A stretch of DNA of 59,791 bases from Hydrogenimonas thermophila (GTDB taxonomy: Bacteria > Campylobacterota > Campylobacteria > Campylobacterales > Hydrogenimonadaceae). The notes beneath the pieces are model-generated. The model saw nothing but the letters and a program-made list of their open reading frames with translations. It was not told where the DNA came from and searched no databases. This document shows positions 3,035 through 59,378 of this stretch, in pieces (the first letter of the stretch is position 1; each line of letters begins with the position of its first letter). The stretch is taken from NCBI RefSeq assembly GCF_900115615.1, contig NZ_FOXB01000011.1:1-59791 (forward strand), written 5' to 3'. A program made the position numbers and the translations under genes.

Positions 3035-3856
3035 TTACTCTATTCTCTCCAAAGCCTCTTGCATGAGGGTAATATGATAATCTTCCTGAAAATTTATGAA
3101 ATTAAAAAAGTTTTGAAGCTCTTCATTATCTACTGCTTCAGCCAATGCCCTGCACTGCTCTTTTGCACCTTTTTCTTCTTCTATGCCATCTTCTAAAAAC
3201 TTTTTAAGTGATTCAAACTTGTAAATCTCTTGCGTTACCATACGAGGAACTGCTAAAATTCCCATCTTTGCCATCATTCTTGCAAAAGATTTGAGATGAA
3301 ACTTTGACTCATCTATCAAGATTTGAAAAATTTCACTAAGACGTTTATCTTCAACAACCGTCCCCGCATAAGAGTAGATAACAATCAACTCATACTCTTT
3401 ATAACTCTCTTCAAATAGAAACATAACGAGTGCATCAAGTGAGCTTTTTTCAAGCTCATAACCATCAAGAGTTAAAGATTTGTTAAAAGCAGTTACCTTT
3501 TCGCTTCGTTCAAATTCACGTTTTAGTGTTGAACGAATAAAGCCTAAATCATTTAACATTCTCTTAGCCAATGGATCACCATTATCACTCAGCTGCTTCT
3601 CTACACGCTCAAGTGCTTCATCACAAAATAAAGCTGCTTCACCTTCTGTTTTAAAGTTAAGCTCTATTGCTGGACGCTCATAACTATACTCTATATTTTT
3701 AGCCACATAGATTGTCTCTATAAAGCGTAAGTGTCTGTATATGATTTCTGAGTAGTCATACAGTTTTTCAGCCCACTCTCTGTCATTTACTGCAAATGAT
3801 GAAAAGAGCAATCTAAGCCACGCTTCATGAACCGATACAAATAGACGTTTTTGCAT
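3035..3856 (-). CDS. Ferritin-like four-helix protein
   Basis: A 273 aa mostly helical cytoplasmic protein. It carries repeated Glu/His pairs of the kind that bind di-iron centres in ferritin-like bundles: EESYKEYE, DESKFH about 45 residues later, and QEDYH close to the C terminus. The family is only recognised by this pattern; I cannot assign an enzyme activity. Its position between a NifU-like protein and psd, with gaps of three and one bases, ties it to iron handling or to oxidation chemistry at the membrane, but this is inference. An iron-store or oxidative-stress role is as likely as a catalytic one. Confidence 0.6.
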   Translation of the reverse strand: MQKRLFVSVHEAWLRLLFSSFAVNDREWAEKLYDYSEIIYRHLRFIETIYVAKNIEYSYERPAIELNFKTEGEAALFCDEALERVEKQLSDNGDPLAKRMLNDLGFIRSTLKREFERSEKVTAFNKSLTLDGYELEKSSLDALVMFLFEESYKEYELIVIYSYAGTVVEDKRLSEIFQILIDESKFHLKSFARMMAKMGILAVPRMVTQEIYKFESLKKFLEDGIEEEKGAKEQCRALAEAVDNEELQNFFNFINFQEDYHITLMQEALERIE

Positions 3857-52089: not shown

Positions 52090-52166
52090 GGGCCAATAGC
52101 TCAGTTGGTTAGAGCATCCGGCTCATAACCGGATGGTCCCAGGTTCGAGTCCTGGTTGGCCCACCA
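52090..52166 (+). tRNA. tRNA with CAU anticodon (elongator Met, or Ile2)
   Basis: A 77-nt cloverleaf with acceptor arms GGGCCAA/TTGGCCC, T-arm GGTTCGAGTCC and encoded CCA. The anticodon CAT is at 52124-52126 in a seven-base loop closed by TCCGG/CCGGA. The G1-C72 pair rules out the initiator type, which has an unpaired 1-72. CAU can be elongator Met or, after lysidine modification, Ile2; I favour Met. Its 3' end is the probable attachment site of the island that follows. Confidence 0.95.
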
Positions 52167-52443
52167 CTTCAAAACTCCATAAAATCGGACTTCATAACCA
52201 TTTCAATCAAGTGTTTAAGTTTTCTATGTAATACTGATTGCTACCCTATTGCTACCCATCTTTTAGATTTCTACCTTTTTGCTACCCTGTAAAGGTTTTT
52301 ACAGTCCTGATGAGGTCAAGCAGATAATAAAATGATAGTGTTACAATGTAATAGTAAAGTTTTGATGAGGTCAAGCAGGGATTAAAGAGGGTAGCAAACG
52401 GGTAGCATTAATCCCCGATCATTCAATCGGGGTGTAGCAGGTA
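52167..52443. other. Attachment-side repeat region (attL-like)
   Basis: No gene fits here. TTGCTACCC occurs at 52238-52246, 52249-52257 and 52279-52287. Its inverse occurs as GGGTAGCAA at 52389-52397 and GGGTAGCAT at 52400-52408. Between these sets lies a 16-bp direct repeat. This layout, right after a tRNA 3' end, resembles arm-type sites of a tyrosine recombinase plus accessory-factor sites. A hairpin with seven-base arms at 52413-52419 and 52426-52432 precedes the last leftward gene's end and could terminate the island operon. Confidence 0.6.
52308..52378 (+). repeat. 16-bp direct repeat near the tRNA
   Basis: TGATGAGGTCAAGCAG occurs at 52308-52323 and 52363-52378, 55 bp apart start to start, inside the attachment-side region. 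Such pairs are typical of excisionase or other accessory-factor sites. Confidence 0.85.
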
Positions 52444-53188: not shown

Positions 53189-53497
53189 TCACCTCCTTTT
53201 TATGATATGATTACATTTTTAAAAATGTTAATCAACACTATGTAGAGAATTATACCTAATAACTACATATTTATTATTAAATTATAGATTAGTTAAATCT
53301 TTTAAGGTTTATATACAATAGGTAGATTTTTCACTCTAACCTTAATCAAGTTATTCACATATTGGCAATTTTATTCACATCCTAAAAAATCCACATACTT
53401 TTTAAGCTTACTAAACCTTAAACGCTCTGAAAGAGTTAAAAAACCACTCTAAAAAGTATTGAAAAGTGGACTTTTCAAACAATCAATTTTTTAAACC
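53189..53497. other. AT-rich intergenic region with DnaA-box-like sites and repeats
   Basis: No gene is seen in these 309 bases. TTATTCACA (fits TTATNCACA) occurs at 53351-53359 and 53371-53379, exactly 20 bp apart, with a weaker AAATCCACA at 53387-53395. AAACCTTAAACG is present at 53413-53424 and again at 53493-53504, and the inverted core TTTAAGGTTT lies near 53299. It may be an origin-like or regulatory region. Confidence 0.5.
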
Positions 53498-54037
53498 TTA
53501 AACGTCTATCTCTTCCGCTATGTTTGTAATGTCAAAAATATCATCCTTTTTATTGTCGCTTTTAGGTACAACTCCGATTTTCTTTCTGCTCGATACTGTT
53601 AAGCCAAGCTCTTTGCTAAGTGATACCACTGTTTTGACTGTTGTAAGCAGGGCGTTATAATTCGGGTTTGCATATGGTACGCCTTTGGAGCTGATAATAG
53701 TTACACCCTCTTTTAAAACTACCTGTTCAAGATTTATCATCCTTGCGTACTGGTTGCAAAGTGGTATCAATGCTATATCGTCAAGCTCGGTCAACGTGTC
53801 GCCCATTTTTGACTTTATAGCCTCGTATTTCTCCTTAGCTATTTCCGATATAAAGGCATTATCAATAAGTTTCGGTGCTGTTGACTTTTTGACTTTTGCA
53901 CGTACCCAATTACGCTTCTTTGCTTCTCGGTGCAGATAACCTTTGTCAATCTTATGTTTCTCGGCTACATCTGCTATTGTAAGCTCTCCGGCTAAGTAAT
54001 CTTTTTCAATAGCTTTCCAATTATAGCGGCTACTCAT
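53498..54037 (-). CDS. Phage terminase small subunit (P27-like)
   Basis: The DNA-recognition subunit of a phage packaging motor. The N terminus holds an HTH (LTIADVAEKHKIDKGYLHREA, about 17-37), and the region of about 55-165 has the P27-type small-terminase pattern: an ALIPLCNQYAR helix, a G-ending beta turn, NPNYNALLTT, and LSKELGLTVSSRKK. It starts with AAGGGG upstream. No large terminase follows; instead only small genes and the attachment end. In satellites a private small terminase lets the element's DNA be packaged into helper capsids. Confidence 0.75.
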   Translation of the reverse strand: MSSRYNWKAIEKDYLAGELTIADVAEKHKIDKGYLHREAKKRNWVRAKVKKSTAPKLIDNAFISEIAKEKYEAIKSKMGDTLTELDDIALIPLCNQYARMINLEQVVLKEGVTIISSKGVPYANPNYNALLTTVKTVVSLSKELGLTVSSRKKIGVVPKSDNKKDDIFDITNIAEEIDV

Positions 54038-54136: not shown

Positions 54137-54373
54137 TTATTTTATGACTTCATCTCTAAAAAGCTTTGTCTCATAGTGCTGTATGATTGCTTCTTTAGCT
54201 TTCAACTCTTCTGTAAGTTGATCTATCTTCTTGTTACCTGCTATCCAGTAACCGGCTATCTCTTCGTGGTCTTTGTAAATCTCACTCAACAACTCTTTAA
54301 TAGAGTTATACTCCTCTGTATCTTCGCCACATATTCCGGCTACCTTTGATAGTGCTTCTTGTTTGCTTATCAT
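54137..54373 (-). CDS. Small coiled-coil island protein
   Basis: A 78 aa, highly helical, acidic protein with a likely coiled coil at about 45-72. No family is recognised. It overlaps the previous island gene by four bases, which supports co-translation. Confidence 0.55.
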   Translation of the reverse strand: MISKQEALSKVAGICGEDTEEYNSIKELLSEIYKDHEEIAGYWIAGNKKIDQLTEELKAKEAIIQHYETKLFRDEVIK

Positions 54374-54777
54374 CTGTCGCCCTTAGTTTGCTTCTTTACC
54401 CATTCAGTTGCTTTCAACACTACCTCTTGAAGTGCGTCTCCATCAAAATACTTATTTAAATCCGCCCAATCACCGTCTCTATCAAGACCACGATAACCTA
54501 CAATACACTGAAAATTATAAGTAAGCCCTATATACGAAACACTTACATCATTTATGTAAAAATGGTCGCCATTATTGATGGTTTCATCTTCAGGAAAATT
54601 GTCAACCATCCATCTGATACACTTATCAACAAGCTCATAGATGTTTATTGGTTTTTGTATTAATGGAGCATTCTTGTAACGTTCATTAGGTATCCAGTAT
54701 ATGTAATTATTCTCTCTGACAGTGAGATTTACCACTTCAACACCTAAAACCTCACTAAGTACCTCTTTGCTTATCAT
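54370..54777 (-). CDS. Island protein of unknown function (135 aa)
   Basis: A soluble alpha-beta protein rich in Trp and Tyr with no recognised domain. It has four-base overlaps with both neighbours, so it belongs to the same transcript as recT and the Lar-like gene. The aromatic content and length resemble phage-encoded accessory proteins, but no function can be given. Confidence 0.55.
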   Translation of the reverse strand: MISKEVLSEVLGVEVVNLTVRENNYIYWIPNERYKNAPLIQKPINIYELVDKCIRWMVDNFPEDETINNGDHFYINDVSVSYIGLTYNFQCIVGYRGLDRDGDWADLNKYFDGDALQEVVLKATEWVKKQTKGDR

Positions 54778-55070
54778 CTCTTAGCCTCCCAATGCGCTCT
54801 TTTATTCCACTCGTTTATTTCCCAGCTCATTGAACTCCATAAAAGTTTTGGATTCTGTTTACCCTCATTATCTGAAAAGCCTACAGATACAGTTGGAGAT
54901 ATTTTGCATTTATTACAACCCATCTTAGCGTGATGCCAAACTCCACCTGTAGAACTTTTATCGTATATCTTCCACTTAAAAAAAGGTTTTTTCCCACAAA
55001 ATGGACAATATTTCGCTCTTGTTACTTTTCTCCTAAACTTTTTGTAGTATTTAATCTCCTTGCTTGTCAT
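54774..55070 (-). CDS. Lar-like zinc-ribbon protein
   Basis: A 98 aa protein with the CPFCG...C..C layout of Lar-type proteins (cysteines near 22, 25, 52 and 55) and the C-terminal INEWNKR that corresponds to the family's W.xWNxR end. Lar was described as relieving type I restriction in the Rac prophage, where it also sits near recE and recT. The same neighbourhood here supports the call. A GAGAGGAT site precedes the ATG. Confidence 0.7.
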   Translation of the reverse strand: MTSKEIKYYKKFRRKVTRAKYCPFCGKKPFFKWKIYDKSSTGGVWHHAKMGCNKCKISPTVSVGFSDNEGKQNPKLLWSSMSWEINEWNKRAHWEAKR

Positions 55071-55072
55071 TA

Positions 55073-56074
55073 CTATCCTCTCAACTCTTCTGATATTGCA
55101 TCCAATGAACCCAAATCACTCAATAAAGAGTTAGCCTGTTCTGCATTCTCTTTGGCATACTGTAAAGCTTTTGAGCGTGCTACTCCTCTATCTATCAAAG
55201 CTTTTGTTAGTTCCTGCTCTGGTGTCATCTGGTTAGTATCTACTGCCCCACTTAAAAGCATTGCATTAACATCTTTTGGCTGTTCCAACTGTGGTGCGTC
55301 TGCTGTTGCATCTACCTCAACAACTACCGCCTCTTTTTGGAACTTTTGATAATCTGGTATGCTGCCTCTTTCTGCAATATCATCAAGTCCAAGTGCTACT
55401 GTTACATCATCATTTGCTATAGGTAAACGTTTAATGTGTCGCTTAATTGCACTCTTAATTGCCATCTGCTCGTACCATTCAAACCATACGCCTGATGGTC
55501 TGCTGTGGTCTTTCTGGTTCTGGCTCTTTAATCGGATCTTCTCTATCTCTTGCTTTGTCATAACGTTGTAAAGTATCTCTCCATCTCTGGCTTTGACGAT
55601 AGTTACAACTTTCTCCAAGTTCTGATATATCCATTCCGGATTACTCTGTCGGCTCTCATAGTTCGGTCTGAATGTAAGCTTCTCTTCCCATCCGTTTATC
55701 TCGTAATCAAACTCATCTACTGAATAGACTGCATACGCTTTTAGATGCCATCCAATGCGTTCAAGCATTGTTATATAGCCTCTCCATCCAATCTGTAACT
55801 GGCAAACTGTTTCACCCGTTTTTGTTTTGTAAGGTACTAAATAAGCTAATCCAAGCTCTTTACCCGGCATAAGTTTCAACATTCCCGCCGCTATACCTGC
55901 TTCAACAATGCTTTTAGTTGAACAGTTTCTTAGATTGTAATCTAGCCCTGCTTGTAATAGTGTTGCTGCAAACTTAGCCCCTCTGGTCTTATCGCCCATC
56001 AAAGTATCAAGCATTTTTCTCTTTGGTATGATTAACTGTTTTAACTCATTCTCTCTGGTCATTATGTTACTCAT
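55073..56074 (-). CDS. recT: RecT single-strand annealing recombinase
   Basis: Phage annealing protein that pairs complementary strands, working with a RecE-type exonuclease. The conserved block spans about 30-220: AATLLQAGLDYNLRNCS, LVPYKTKTG, QLQIGWRGYITMLER, and WYEQMAIKSAIKRHIKRLP. The C-terminal 100 residues are acidic and variable. AGGAG lies eight bases before the ATG. The exonuclease gene is immediately upstream in the operon. Confidence 0.95.
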   Translation of the reverse strand: MSNIMTRENELKQLIIPKRKMLDTLMGDKTRGAKFAATLLQAGLDYNLRNCSTKSIVEAGIAAGMLKLMPGKELGLAYLVPYKTKTGETVCQLQIGWRGYITMLERIGWHLKAYAVYSVDEFDYEINGWEEKLTFRPNYESRQSNPEWIYQNLEKVVTIVKARDGEILYNVMTKQEIEKIRLKSQNQKDHSRPSGVWFEWYEQMAIKSAIKRHIKRLPIANDDVTVALGLDDIAERGSIPDYQKFQKEAVVVEVDATADAPQLEQPKDVNAMLLSGAVDTNQMTPEQELTKALIDRGVARSKALQYAKENAEQANSLLSDLGSLDAISEELRG

Positions 56075-56187: not shown

Positions 56188-56976
56188 TTATGCTCCGCTC
56201 TCTTGCTTCCAGTACCAAGCAGGTAAACTTATTGGCTCTGCTACCTGTCCAACCCCAGTGTCCAAAAACTTCTTTAATCGCTCCAAGTGGTAAAGATAGT
56301 TTTCTCTTCCTGCTTCAATAGCTTCCTGTTCAAGCTGATAGATACGTACTAGGTATGGTGATTGCTTTTCAACTGCTACAATGATAAAAGTTTCAGCCGG
56401 ATAACCTGCCAATTTAAGAGTGTCAAGGTACCAAGCAGCTTGACGGTGGTATCTGTAATCATAGATAGCTTTCTCAAAGCTGTAAGGATCCACGCTCTTG
56501 GTCGTTTTTATGTCGATCACAATTCCCGCTTTTTGCAGGTAATAGTCTGGTCTGCATTTACGCGTAAAACCAAGATCATCTTTAGCAAATATGGAGCGTT
56601 CAGCTACTCCATTGCTAAGAATCCCACCTGCTATGGCTCTAATGTTCTCTGCCATTCGCTCTGCTGTCTCCCACTCATCCACTGCTACTACTTGCTTACC
56701 TGCATTTTCTTCAAGGAATTTAGCTTTAGCCTCTCTGTATTTTTTAGAGTTCTTGTTTTCCCTGCATCCGTCAAACTCTTCTTTGACAAACTCATTACTA
56801 AGAGTTTCTGGCTCCAGTACCATTGCGTGTAAAAGAGTTCCAAAATCAAACTGTTTACCCTCTAGCTTAAAACGCTCTCGGTGTACGTAATGCAGTGGTG
56901 ATAGTTCTAAAAGCCTAAAATCACTGCTACTGATTCCATCTTTTGCCCGATATTCAGCATTACTCATCTGTTGCAT
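56188..56976 (-). CDS. RecE-like exonuclease (PD-(D/E)XK)
   Basis: Double-strand DNA exonuclease that creates single-strand tails for RecT, of the exodeoxyribonuclease VIII C-terminal family. The early SSSDFRLLELSPLHY and GTLLHAMVLEP (active-site His) and the core GFTRKCRPDYYL ... GIVIDIKTTKS, giving Asp and D-x-K, mark the nuclease. I favour ATG 56976 (AAGG six bases upstream) over the ATG two codons earlier, giving 262 aa. It pairs with recT next to it. Confidence 0.9.
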   Translation of the reverse strand: MQQMSNAEYRAKDGISSSDFRLLELSPLHYVHRERFKLEGKQFDFGTLLHAMVLEPETLSNEFVKEEFDGCRENKNSKKYREAKAKFLEENAGKQVVAVDEWETAERMAENIRAIAGGILSNGVAERSIFAKDDLGFTRKCRPDYYLQKAGIVIDIKTTKSVDPYSFEKAIYDYRYHRQAAWYLDTLKLAGYPAETFIIVAVEKQSPYLVRIYQLEQEAIEAGRENYLYHLERLKKFLDTGVGQVAEPISLPAWYWKQESGA

Positions 56977-57032
56977 TAACATCCTTTTGTTTGAATCTTT
57001 CAGCCGGCTGATTTAAACGTACCTCGATACGC

Positions 57033-57305
57033 TTAAATCAACTCTTCTAAGTTCTGCTTCACCTCATCAACGCTATGTGCTACAAATGCTATTCCACCTG
57101 CTTTTTTAATCTCGTTTATGTGATGCTCTTGCAATGGTGTTACTCTTCCTCCTGGTCTTTTAACTTCGATAGCGATAAATTTGCCATTTAAACAAGCCAA
57201 AATGTCTGGTGTTCCTGCTCTATTAGTTGCTACAGTTTTGACGCTATAAGCCCCGATTCTGTTCAAATAGTCGATAATCTTCTTTTGTATCTGCTGTTCA
57301 CTCAT
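57033..57305 (-). CDS. VRR-NUC domain nuclease
   Basis: A stand-alone 90 aa VRR-NUC protein of the PD-(D/E)XK superfamily, with catalytic residues in GTPDILA (Asp34) and IAIEVKRPGG (Glu47, Lys49), followed by the conserved TPLQ. Phage examples act on branched or flapped DNA in replication or recombination. It overlaps the replication gene by eight bases; AAGGG precedes the ATG. Confidence 0.92.
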   Translation of the reverse strand: MSEQQIQKKIIDYLNRIGAYSVKTVATNRAGTPDILACLNGKFIAIEVKRPGGRVTPLQEHHINEIKKAGGIAFVAHSVDEVKQNLEELI

Positions 57306-57930
57306 ATTTGCCCTTTTTTAACTGCATGAACTTCTTGCAATTATCAACTGTAAGAAAATCTTCACTCTCTATTTTTGCTTTTATGTTTCGCTTATAAGCC
57401 TGTAAATTTTCCACTCTAAACTTTGGATCTCTTTTTTCATTTTCGCCTATAAGATAGCTTATAAACTCGTCAAAGTTCTCCATCACATATGCGCGCGCGT
57501 ATTCTTCATCATATGTTCTATCTATTAATTGTGTGTTCAATTTTGATACACCGGTGTTTAATTTTGATACACCTGAAACGCCTAAATTTTGGGTGTTTAA
57601 TTTTGATACACCTTGCAATAACTTTTTATTATTTAAAGCGATACTGTAAACGCTTGTTATGTCCATACCAATTTTGGATTTTCTGCGCTGTACCTTTATA
57701 AGTTTTTTTTCTTCAATAGATTTCAAAATCTTTACTACTTTAGCTTTACTCATACCGGATTCATCCATCCATTGACTTATACTGATAGCATCGCTTCTTT
57801 TTTTAAATAGAATTGTCTTTTTAAGCAATATCATCAAGATAGTAAACTCACTATCGCTAATCTTCTTCTGCTCCAGTAAGTCATATAGTGATTTAACTAT
57901 CTCAACAAATGTGATATAATTATCCTGCAT
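57298..57930 (-). CDS. Phage-type replication initiator with internal iteron-like repeats
   Basis: A 210 aa protein. Residues 1-95 form a winged-helix domain like the N terminus of lambda O-type or RepO initiators (helix ISQWMDESGMSKAKVVKIL, then wing KKLIKVQRRK). Residues 107-134 contain three GVSKLNT units encoded by 20-bp DNA repeats. The C-terminal 75 residues are helical and could bind a helicase or loader. Its place between an SF2 helicase and nucleases supports a role in element replication. An initiator is the best explanation, but a transcriptional regulator with a similar wHTH cannot be excluded. Confidence 0.7.
   Translation of the reverse strand: MQDNYITFVEIVKSLYDLLEQKKISDSEFTILMILLKKTILFKKRSDAISISQWMDESGMSKAKVVKILKSIEEKKLIKVQRRKSKIGMDITSVYSIALNNKKLLQGVSKLNTQNLGVSGVSKLNTGVSKLNTQLIDRTYDEEYARAYVMENFDEFISYLIGENEKRDPKFRVENLQAYKRNIKAKIESEDFLTVDNCKKFMQLKKGKYE
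57533..57612. repeat. Three 20-bp iteron-like repeats inside the replication gene
   Basis: GTGTTTAATTTTGATACACC is found at 57554-57573 and 57593-57612, and with one change (C for T) at 57533-57552. Start spacings are 21 and 39 bp. The unit has inverted ends (GTGT/ACAC), so each could bind a dimer. An AT-rich segment follows at about 57613-57640. This fits an origin of the lambda type, located within the initiator gene. Confidence 0.75.
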
Positions 57931-57933
57931 TAA

Positions 57934-59124
57934 CTAAAATCCTTTTGGATGCCGATTAATAAACATTCTGGCTTTAAAGTCTTTATGTTTAAGTGCTACC
58001 GCTTCAAAAACTGCTTCTGACACTCCGCCTCGTGTCATAAGTATATGAACGTTGATAGGTGTCTTTCTATGCATAGATGCCTGTCTTGCGTTCCGCTGCT
58101 GAAAACGTGCTGTTGAATAATCCATACTGGCTATTATTAAATGCTCTATATGCGATAACTCCACTCCCTCCGCGTGGCTATGACTGCTTAGAATCAATGC
58201 ATTTTTAAACTCTTTCTCAAATATTTTACGTTGCCCAATCCACCTGGTCATAATTGCCACGTCTTTGGTATCTCCCCAATGCTCTTTTATATAATTGACA
58301 TACTCTCTACCGCCTGTATCGTGATATTCATCATCAATCTTTAAACATCCGCACTCTATCTGGTAAAGTCCATTGATTAGCTTTATAGGTGTATCTGCTA
58401 CAAATCCCGCTAAAACTCTATCACGCTGTAAAGTAGCTAAAAGCTCCATTGTACGTGGTCCAAGCTCTACATAATGCGGTACTATCTTTGGTTGATATTT
58501 AAAGCCCGTCTGCTCTCTGGTAATCTGTAGCAGGTATGGTCTCACCTCATCCATAATTCTATCTGTCTTAGCTTCTGAATAATCGTTGATAGCTCTACCC
58601 ATAATAAAACGCTGTTTTTTGTTTACAAATAGCCTTGCCCAACTGTAGAAGTTTTTATACTTGCTAAATGGATGACTTCCACATAACCATAACGGGTGAA
58701 ACCATTGACTAGCACTCTCTGCTGCTGGTGTAGCACTTATTAAAATCTTTGGTACATTTAACCAATTATTTCTGATCAGCTTTGCTTTAGCGGGTGTTTT
58801 TGGAAAACTGCTTATCGCATAATGAAATTCATCAATGATGATGAGGTCAAAATCTCCGCTTACTTTGTGTAAACTCTCATAATTGATGACTGTATAATCT
58901 TTCTTTGCTTCATACTTTTTAAGATCATCTTCCCATCCACTGATAGCAGCTTTTTTAGTGATAACCAAAATCTTTTTACAAGTTAGATGCTCTACTGCAT
59001 CAATTACCATTAGAGTTTTACCGCTTCGCTCTGGTGCTTGGACGATTGCTAATAAGTGCTGTATTATTAGCTTTTGGATTTGCTTTGAGCCTTGTATTTG
59101 TAGTAGGAGTAGTGTTATTGCCAT
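57934..59124 (-). CDS. SF2 (DEAD/SNF2-type) phage helicase
   Basis: A 396 aa ATP-dependent helicase or translocase. Motif I is PERSGKT at 31-37, motif II DEFH at 98-101 and motif III SATP at 130-133. The C-terminal half has a helicase-C domain ending in FQQRNARQ, the motif VI arginine region. It is compact, with a central insertion carrying a Cys pair (ECGCL near 265). Similar helicases are common in phage early regions. GAGGTAG precedes the ATG; the replication gene starts four bases after its end. Confidence 0.88.
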   Translation of the reverse strand: MAITLLLLQIQGSKQIQKLIIQHLLAIVQAPERSGKTLMVIDAVEHLTCKKILVITKKAAISGWEDDLKKYEAKKDYTVINYESLHKVSGDFDLIIIDEFHYAISSFPKTPAKAKLIRNNWLNVPKILISATPAAESASQWFHPLWLCGSHPFSKYKNFYSWARLFVNKKQRFIMGRAINDYSEAKTDRIMDEVRPYLLQITREQTGFKYQPKIVPHYVELGPRTMELLATLQRDRVLAGFVADTPIKLINGLYQIECGCLKIDDEYHDTGGREYVNYIKEHWGDTKDVAIMTRWIGQRKIFEKEFKNALILSSHSHAEGVELSHIEHLIIASMDYSTARFQQRNARQASMHRKTPINVHILMTRGGVSEAVFEAVALKHKDFKARMFINRHPKGF

Positions 59125-59135
59125 TATGCTACCTC

Positions 59136-59378
59136 TTACGCTGTTTTTACGTTATTGTTAGTCAAATAGCTAACTATCGCCTGCAATGGGTAGCGTACTG
59201 CTCCACGTCCTCCCGGTGTATCTTTCTTTTGATACTCTGGTCCTATACCCTGCTCTTTTAGCCGGTCAAGTGTAGCTACTGAAATGCCTAATACCTTTGC
59301 AGCTTGTTTTCTGGTAAGTGCGGCTGTTTTGTAAGTCTCAAAGAGTGTTTTGTATAGGTCTCTTTGTAGTTCGTCCAT
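59136..59378 (-). CDS. AlpA/MerR-like excisionase or regulator
   Basis: An 80 aa protein with a winged HTH of the MerR/AlpA type: LTRKQAAKVLGISVATLDRL, a Gly-containing wing, then a RYPLQAIVSYL helix. AlpA-like proteins control integrase or act as excisionase in phages and phage satellites. It is the first gene of the island operon. GGAGGT lies eight bases before the ATG. An inverted repeat just upstream could be its own operator. Confidence 0.75.
   Translation of the reverse strand: MDELQRDLYKTLFETYKTAALTRKQAAKVLGISVATLDRLKEQGIGPEYQKKDTPGGRGAVRYPLQAIVSYLTNNNVKTA

Follow-up and report, generated by a model that had tools for sequence, protein, structure and literature searches.

The window, that is, the whole 59,791-nucleotide stretch of the Hydrogenimonas thermophila contig NZ_FOXB01000011.1 that was analyzed, probably contains a replication origin of the lambda type inside the gene of its own initiator: three iterons, situated in the part of the gene that encodes the linker between two protein domains, would be the binding sites of the O-like initiator protein. 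This reading builds on the repeats themselves, the domain layout of the protein, the conservation at the DNA level in relatives and the island context of the gene. In such an origin, the winged-helix domain would attach to the iterons as a dimer, wrapping the DNA and melting the AT-rich tract beside iteron 3 (57498-57531), while the C-terminal domain would recruit the replicative helicase of the host.

The initiator gene (57298..57930, minus strand) encodes a protein of 210 amino acids. It matches the family PF04492 (Phage_rep_O) with 38.5 bits (E 1.8e-9), above the curated cut-off of 28.7 bits, in agreement with the winged-helix N terminus of the original prediction, and phrog_678 ("replication initiation O-like") at 4.3e-13. 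In the AlphaFold model, which has a mean pLDDT of 67 over 210 residues, a winged helix of helices and strands (residues about 8-106) is followed by a low-confidence linker (about 101-140), inside which the repeats lie, and by a helical C domain modeled with confidence (about 135-205); the linker is predicted to be disordered over residues 101-134 or so. The matches of a viral fold search include proteins that carry the names lambda GpO N-terminal and replication initiator, though at low TM-scores. A fold search of the PDB gave nothing at E <= 0.001, the best matches being the DnaD N domain and MarR-type folds, and a sequence search of solved structures gave 0 matches. With tblastn, no phage or plasmid match was found and none was confirmed in viral_contigs or genome_contigs; the nearest relatives were found in whole genomes within the same order.

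In the gene sense, the iteron is a 21-bp unit, GGTGTATCAAAATTRAACACM, of which three copies are found on the minus strand at spacings of 21 and 39 bp. Iteron 1, the first in the gene direction (57592..57612, GGTGTATCAAAATTAAACACC), and iteron 2 (57553..57573) are identical; iteron 3 (57532..57552, GGTGTATCAAAATTGAACACA) has two synonymous differences. The repeat coordinates and spacings given in the original prediction are right, and the unit is unique to this place: no other match to GGTGTATCAAAATTRAACACM exists in the window at up to three mismatches, and shuffled windows contain 0.02 matches on average and reach three in 0 of 100 cases. The unit is a dyad, with 7 of 10 positions pairing and perfect 5-bp ends (GGTGT/ACACC). 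One spacing falls in the lambda-type range of 20-24 bp and the other, 39 bp, outside it, although the latter is also present in the Acinetobacter phage Ab1656-2. Since winged-helix proteins are often repressors, and since the fold search lists many MarR-type regulators, the repeats might be regarded as operators by which the initiator controls its own gene row. This is hardly likely: the protein belongs to a family of replication initiators (PF04492, phrog_678), the sites are buried deep in the coding region, about 320 bp past the start codon, and another island of this genome, described below, has other replication genes in the place of O.

All three copies are read in one frame, with spacings divisible by 3, so that the peptide GVSKLNT is repeated perfectly between the two domains, as had been predicted. 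These features would also suit a peptide repeat that serves the protein, or a recent tandem duplication, without any role as DNA sites. Because of the common frame, the window alone cannot separate selection on DNA from selection on the peptide. Codon shuffles of the window gene that preserve the protein come up to its best pair of 18-mers in 7 of 200 cases, and the codon identity among the iterons is significant in a codon-usage simulation (P 0.002 or 0.0007), though a recent duplication could give the same result.

The relatives are more informative. Four homologs with 24-30% protein identity (L002-L005) contain DNA repeats at the equivalent linker position, with sequences different from those of the window, and L015 likewise has linker-position repeats of its own sequence. 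The copy number in relatives of the window's group varies from 2 to 4, and the repeat score of each of these five genes was matched in 0 of 200 protein-preserving codon shuffles. Furthermore, the copies are not bound to one frame: L004 encodes VVRHTD, PSSPHE and VVRHTN, its middle copy being out of frame with the other two; in L005 it is the first copy that deviates; and the four copies of L015 switch back and forth between frames (VVPKIGT, TSTENGY, VVPKKGT, SSTENGY). Frame-differing copies occur in most phage O genes surveyed, and in the lambda control the same procedure recovered the four annotated ori iterons, in three frames. Dyad symmetry is seen again in most in-gene arrays. Because the repeats of the relatives differ in sequence and frame, what is under selection, as judged from these comparisons, is the DNA of the iterons and not the peptide. 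This agrees with the original argument that peptide repeats which are also DNA repeats point to selection on the DNA, and together with the predicted disorder of the linker it makes a mere peptide repeat or duplication very improbable.

The homolog comparison that had been proposed as a check therefore came out largely as expected, with a kept linker position, varying copy number and kept DNA repeats; what is not kept is the 20-mer itself, as the relatives share the presence and position of repeats and differ in their sequence. Four weak homologs matched mainly over the winged helix, L006, L007, L008 and L017, have no significant in-gene repeats. No significant array was found in the relatives phiAC-1, RAP44 and Silvergun, which share the C domain only, and the array of P12002L is borderline. 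The O-like gene of the Aggregatibacter phage S1249 (L072) contains a sequence encoding GMPADS that is repeated four times, exactly and in frame, with no ACAA junction; this may be a peptide repeat or another type of origin. L018 (G512:C34) served as a control only: it is a fragment of lambda O running into vector-like sequence and looks like cloning-vector contamination of its assembly.

Two AT-rich tracts flank the iterons. The run named in the original prediction (57613..57640, 79% AT) does follow the repeats on the plus strand, but in the gene sense it is on their N-terminal side. On the C-terminal side, the tract 57498..57531 has 74% AT, only slightly more than the 69% of the initiator gene. 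Ranked within the island, its least stable 30-mer belongs to the top 0.9%, and that of the other run to the top 1.9%. Across the border of iteron 3 and the C-terminal tract lies the motif ACACAA (57529..57534, minus strand). A junction of the ACAA type (CACAA or ACAAWA) directly past the last iteron was found in 17 of 20 in-gene arrays, against a background of 2.6% for 16-nt windows taken from other parts of these genes; the motif was picked after looking, in a convenience sample with uneven phage coverage, whose genes are not independent, as the E. coli-type phages among them are related, and the binomial P value of the enrichment is therefore too strong. The junction spans all three codon phases across in-gene arrays (phase 2 in the window, phase 0 in lambda) and is translated as TK in lambda, HN in Acinetobacter phages and TQ in the window and L004, a spread that would be hard to explain at the protein level. 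On account of this junction and the geometry of the relatives, the unwinding tract of the window is likely to be 57498-57531, which fits the lambda-equivalent position better than 57613-57640.

The resemblance to lambda is extensive: in both systems the winged helix belongs to PF04492, the linker region holds the iterons, these are dyads with an A-rich center whose reading frame does not matter, and an ACAA junction leads into an AT tract located C-terminally of them. On sequence evidence, the originally proposed lambda-O-like placement of the origin is thereby upheld in its family, linker position, DNA conservation and AT tract. The lambda ori sits in the middle of the O gene, the two iterons proximal to its AT tract form the minimal unwinding unit, and three are enough for growth (PMC7466680). 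O and P contact the open DUE (PMC5043065). In the Stx phages P27 and 933W, the number of iterons within the O gene varies, lengthening the protein linker (PMC7466680); these are full phages with P and have six iterons of the lambda type, whereas the three of the window, 21 and 39 bp apart, are unrelated to lambda's in sequence. P22-like and other phages (SPN9CC, Proteus phage V3, Acinetobacter phage IME284 and Morganella phage IME1369_01) share the frame-independent in-gene iterons and the ACAA junction, but have a gene for a DnaB-like helicase or DnaC after O, of which none was recognized in the window. In the window, O is not followed by P either; an SF2 helicase gene precedes it, a VRR-NUC gene follows it, and the carrier is a satellite-like island instead of a phage.

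This carrier was not part of the original prediction, and neither were the missing recognizable helicase-loader gene and the second, DnaA box-containing element discussed below. The island comprises a leftward row of genes, all on the minus strand where a strand was assigned, which starts with a small HTH_17 protein resembling excisionases or regulators (59136..59378; PF12728 1.5e-6, phrog_66 9.7e-7) and the SF2 helicase (57934..59124; ResIII 9.7e-7, phrog_62 1.5e-36) directly upstream of O. The VRR-NUC nuclease gene (57033..57305; PF08774 1.5e-9) overlaps O by 8 bp and is followed by genes for an exonuclease VIII-like protein (56188..56982; phrog_412 1.2e-68), a RecT-like annealing protein (55073..56074; PF03837 3.6e-27), a Lar-like restriction alleviation protein that is possibly an anti-restriction factor (54774-55070; phrog_599 8.4e-7) and a 78-aa protein with a weak DnaB-like match (54137-54373; E 0.017). 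A gene resembling those of terminase small subunits (TerS-like; 53498..54037; PF05119 4.7e-14, phrog_83 7e-19) and a small HTH gene complete the row, which ends at a tRNA-Met gene (52090..52166, plus strand). The latter is probably the attachment site, in accordance with sister islands, which have att repeats and are likewise inserted at genes for tRNA or tmRNA. Close to it are a repeat TGGGTAGCAATAGGGTAGCAA(A/T) (52238..52259, minus strand), probably an arm-type site of the integrase, and further GGGTAGCA units at 52280 (minus), 52389 (plus) and 52400 (plus), probable arm-type repeats as well. At the other side, the last part of the contig (59483-59791) has copies of 99-100% identity at seven other places in the genome, mostly at contig ends; it is probably the end of an insertion sequence that cuts the island, so that the integrase side is no longer part of the contig. 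With the SF2 helicase as a query, nothing was found in genome_contigs, and viral_contigs gave only relatives of 25-33% identity.

Two related islands are complete and syntenic. L064 (8.2 kb) is bounded by 17-bp repeats, one of which lies in a tmRNA gene, and L065 (8.9 kb) by 28-bp repeats, one of which lies in a tRNA-Leu gene. In both an integrase is present and no structural genes are recognized, and the GGGTAGCA arm-type repeats of the window recur in L065. The combination of integrase, att repeats and absence of structural genes is thus found in three sisters, the third being L091 (G000:C3:36926-46676), a second complete island in the same genome as the window, which is 9.7 kb long, is bounded by 28-bp repeats, of which one lies at tRNA-Pro, and carries the TGGGTAGCAATAGGGTAGCAA(A/T) repeat at both ends. 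As no large terminase or structural genes are recognized in the window's island either, its TerS-like gene suggests the use of a helper phage for packaging. Judged by its gene content, the carrier appears to be a compact integrated island of the satellite-like kind and not a lambdoid phage. In this respect it resembles the PICIs of Gram-negative bacteria such as EcCICFT073, which are also small integrated elements with regulators and a replication module, without structural genes, and which likewise have an integrase (seen in the window's sisters) and a TerS-like gene (seen in the window itself). The PICI origin is located 3' of the initiator gene and has two iteron sets around an AT-rich region (PMC6092414), whereas the window has a single set inside the gene and on one side of the tract, and hence not an origin of the PICI type. 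Another island, of about 5 kb, is found at a tmRNA gene adjoining nitrogenase-like host genes (L067, G197:C19:8000-21500); it encodes an integrase, a LexA/CI-like protein and an O-like protein whose gene contains iterons.

The comparison with the sisters also indicates that the initiator is exchangeable. Between the window and L064 or L065, the helicases are 67-69% identical (69% to L065), the VRR-NUC proteins 60-63%, the exonuclease VIII-like proteins 68% and the RecT-like proteins 58-60% (57-58% to L065 in a separate comparison), whereas the O proteins share just 32% and the iterons are unrelated. L091 keeps the helicase (67%) and VRR-NUC (67%) genes with 46 bp between them and without O or iterons; upstream, it has a primase-like gene (PF01807, just under the cut-off) and an AAA_25 gene (1.7e-29). 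O thus occupies the place of an exchangeable replication module. The best explanation of these patterns is that iterons and initiator would form a self-contained specificity cassette and change together. The drop in identity of the initiator amid neighbors of 58-69%, together with its replacement in L091, suggests that replicon specificity is what changes fastest in these islands.

P, DnaB or DnaC follows O in most phages examined. In the window it is VRR-NUC that follows, as it does, by position and identity, in L064 and L065, so that O has no loader as a neighbor. Family searches of the small genes of the island, which is cut by the contig end, yielded no P or DnaC and nothing DnaB-like beyond the weak match at E 0.017. 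With no recognizable gene for P, DnaC or DnaB, helicase loading would rest on the DnaB of the host, possibly together with host DnaA. Helicobacter pylori does not have DnaC, and its DnaB is able to self-load (PMC2761005), which makes a loaderless origin plausible in hosts of this kind.

Besides the 39-bp spacing and the modest AT excess of the C-terminal tract, a second origin-like element, 4 kb from the iterons, counts against the in-gene origin. The intergenic region 53189..53497 has 76% AT and contains the least stable 30-mer of the island; it is kept in the O-bearing islands, with matching elements at L064:3302-3957 and L065:2942-3571, each upstream of the small HTH gene. A motif search located two DnaA boxes TTATTCACA on its plus strand (53351..53359 and 53371..53379), 20 bp apart. 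Exactly two such boxes, perfect and on the same strand, are present in all three O-bearing islands of the window's type, at 3765 and 3827 in L064 and at 3390 and 3452 in L065 (62 bp apart as against 20 bp in the window), and none in the O-less L091. The form found in L064 and L065, a pair with a 40-60 bp gap, was seen in only 4 of 377 genomes, among them the two that contain these islands, and TTATTCACA agrees with published epsilonproteobacterial DnaA boxes (PMC5043019). Judging by the DnaA boxes and the tmRNA tags, the hosts of the islands would be Campylobacterota.

Replication might hence start at 53189-53497, with the iterons in the gene merely titrating or regulating the initiator. This is considered unlikely, as no copy of the islands' own iterons is present in the element or its counterparts, the complete lambda-type geometry including an AT tract is already available inside the initiator gene, and the region could also be the promoter region of the small HTH gene. 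In addition, the element came to notice post hoc, its three islands include two that are closely similar, and the gap between the boxes is not constant. As far as its sequence goes, it may be an aid to DnaA in helicase recruitment, the real start site or a promoter region. Next to the in-gene origin as such, an origin in two parts can be considered, in which the in-gene iterons would act with the distant DnaA-box element, host DnaA or DnaB would replace lambda P, and the exchangeable cassette would allow sister islands to share a cell; this extension is possible but rather doubtful. Iteron plasmids that use both Rep and DnaA, such as P1 and RK2, also have iterons and DnaA boxes in one replicon, but there the boxes adjoin the iterons instead of lying 4 kb away.

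If the in-gene origin is real, the arrangement by which lambda places its origin in the initiator gene would reach as far as small satellite-like islands without a recognizable helicase loader. Such islands would then be simple natural systems for helicase loading without P or DnaC. Furthermore, the frame-independent ACAA junction would serve as a DNA hallmark, open to testing, for origins within genes across the range that spans lambda and these islands.
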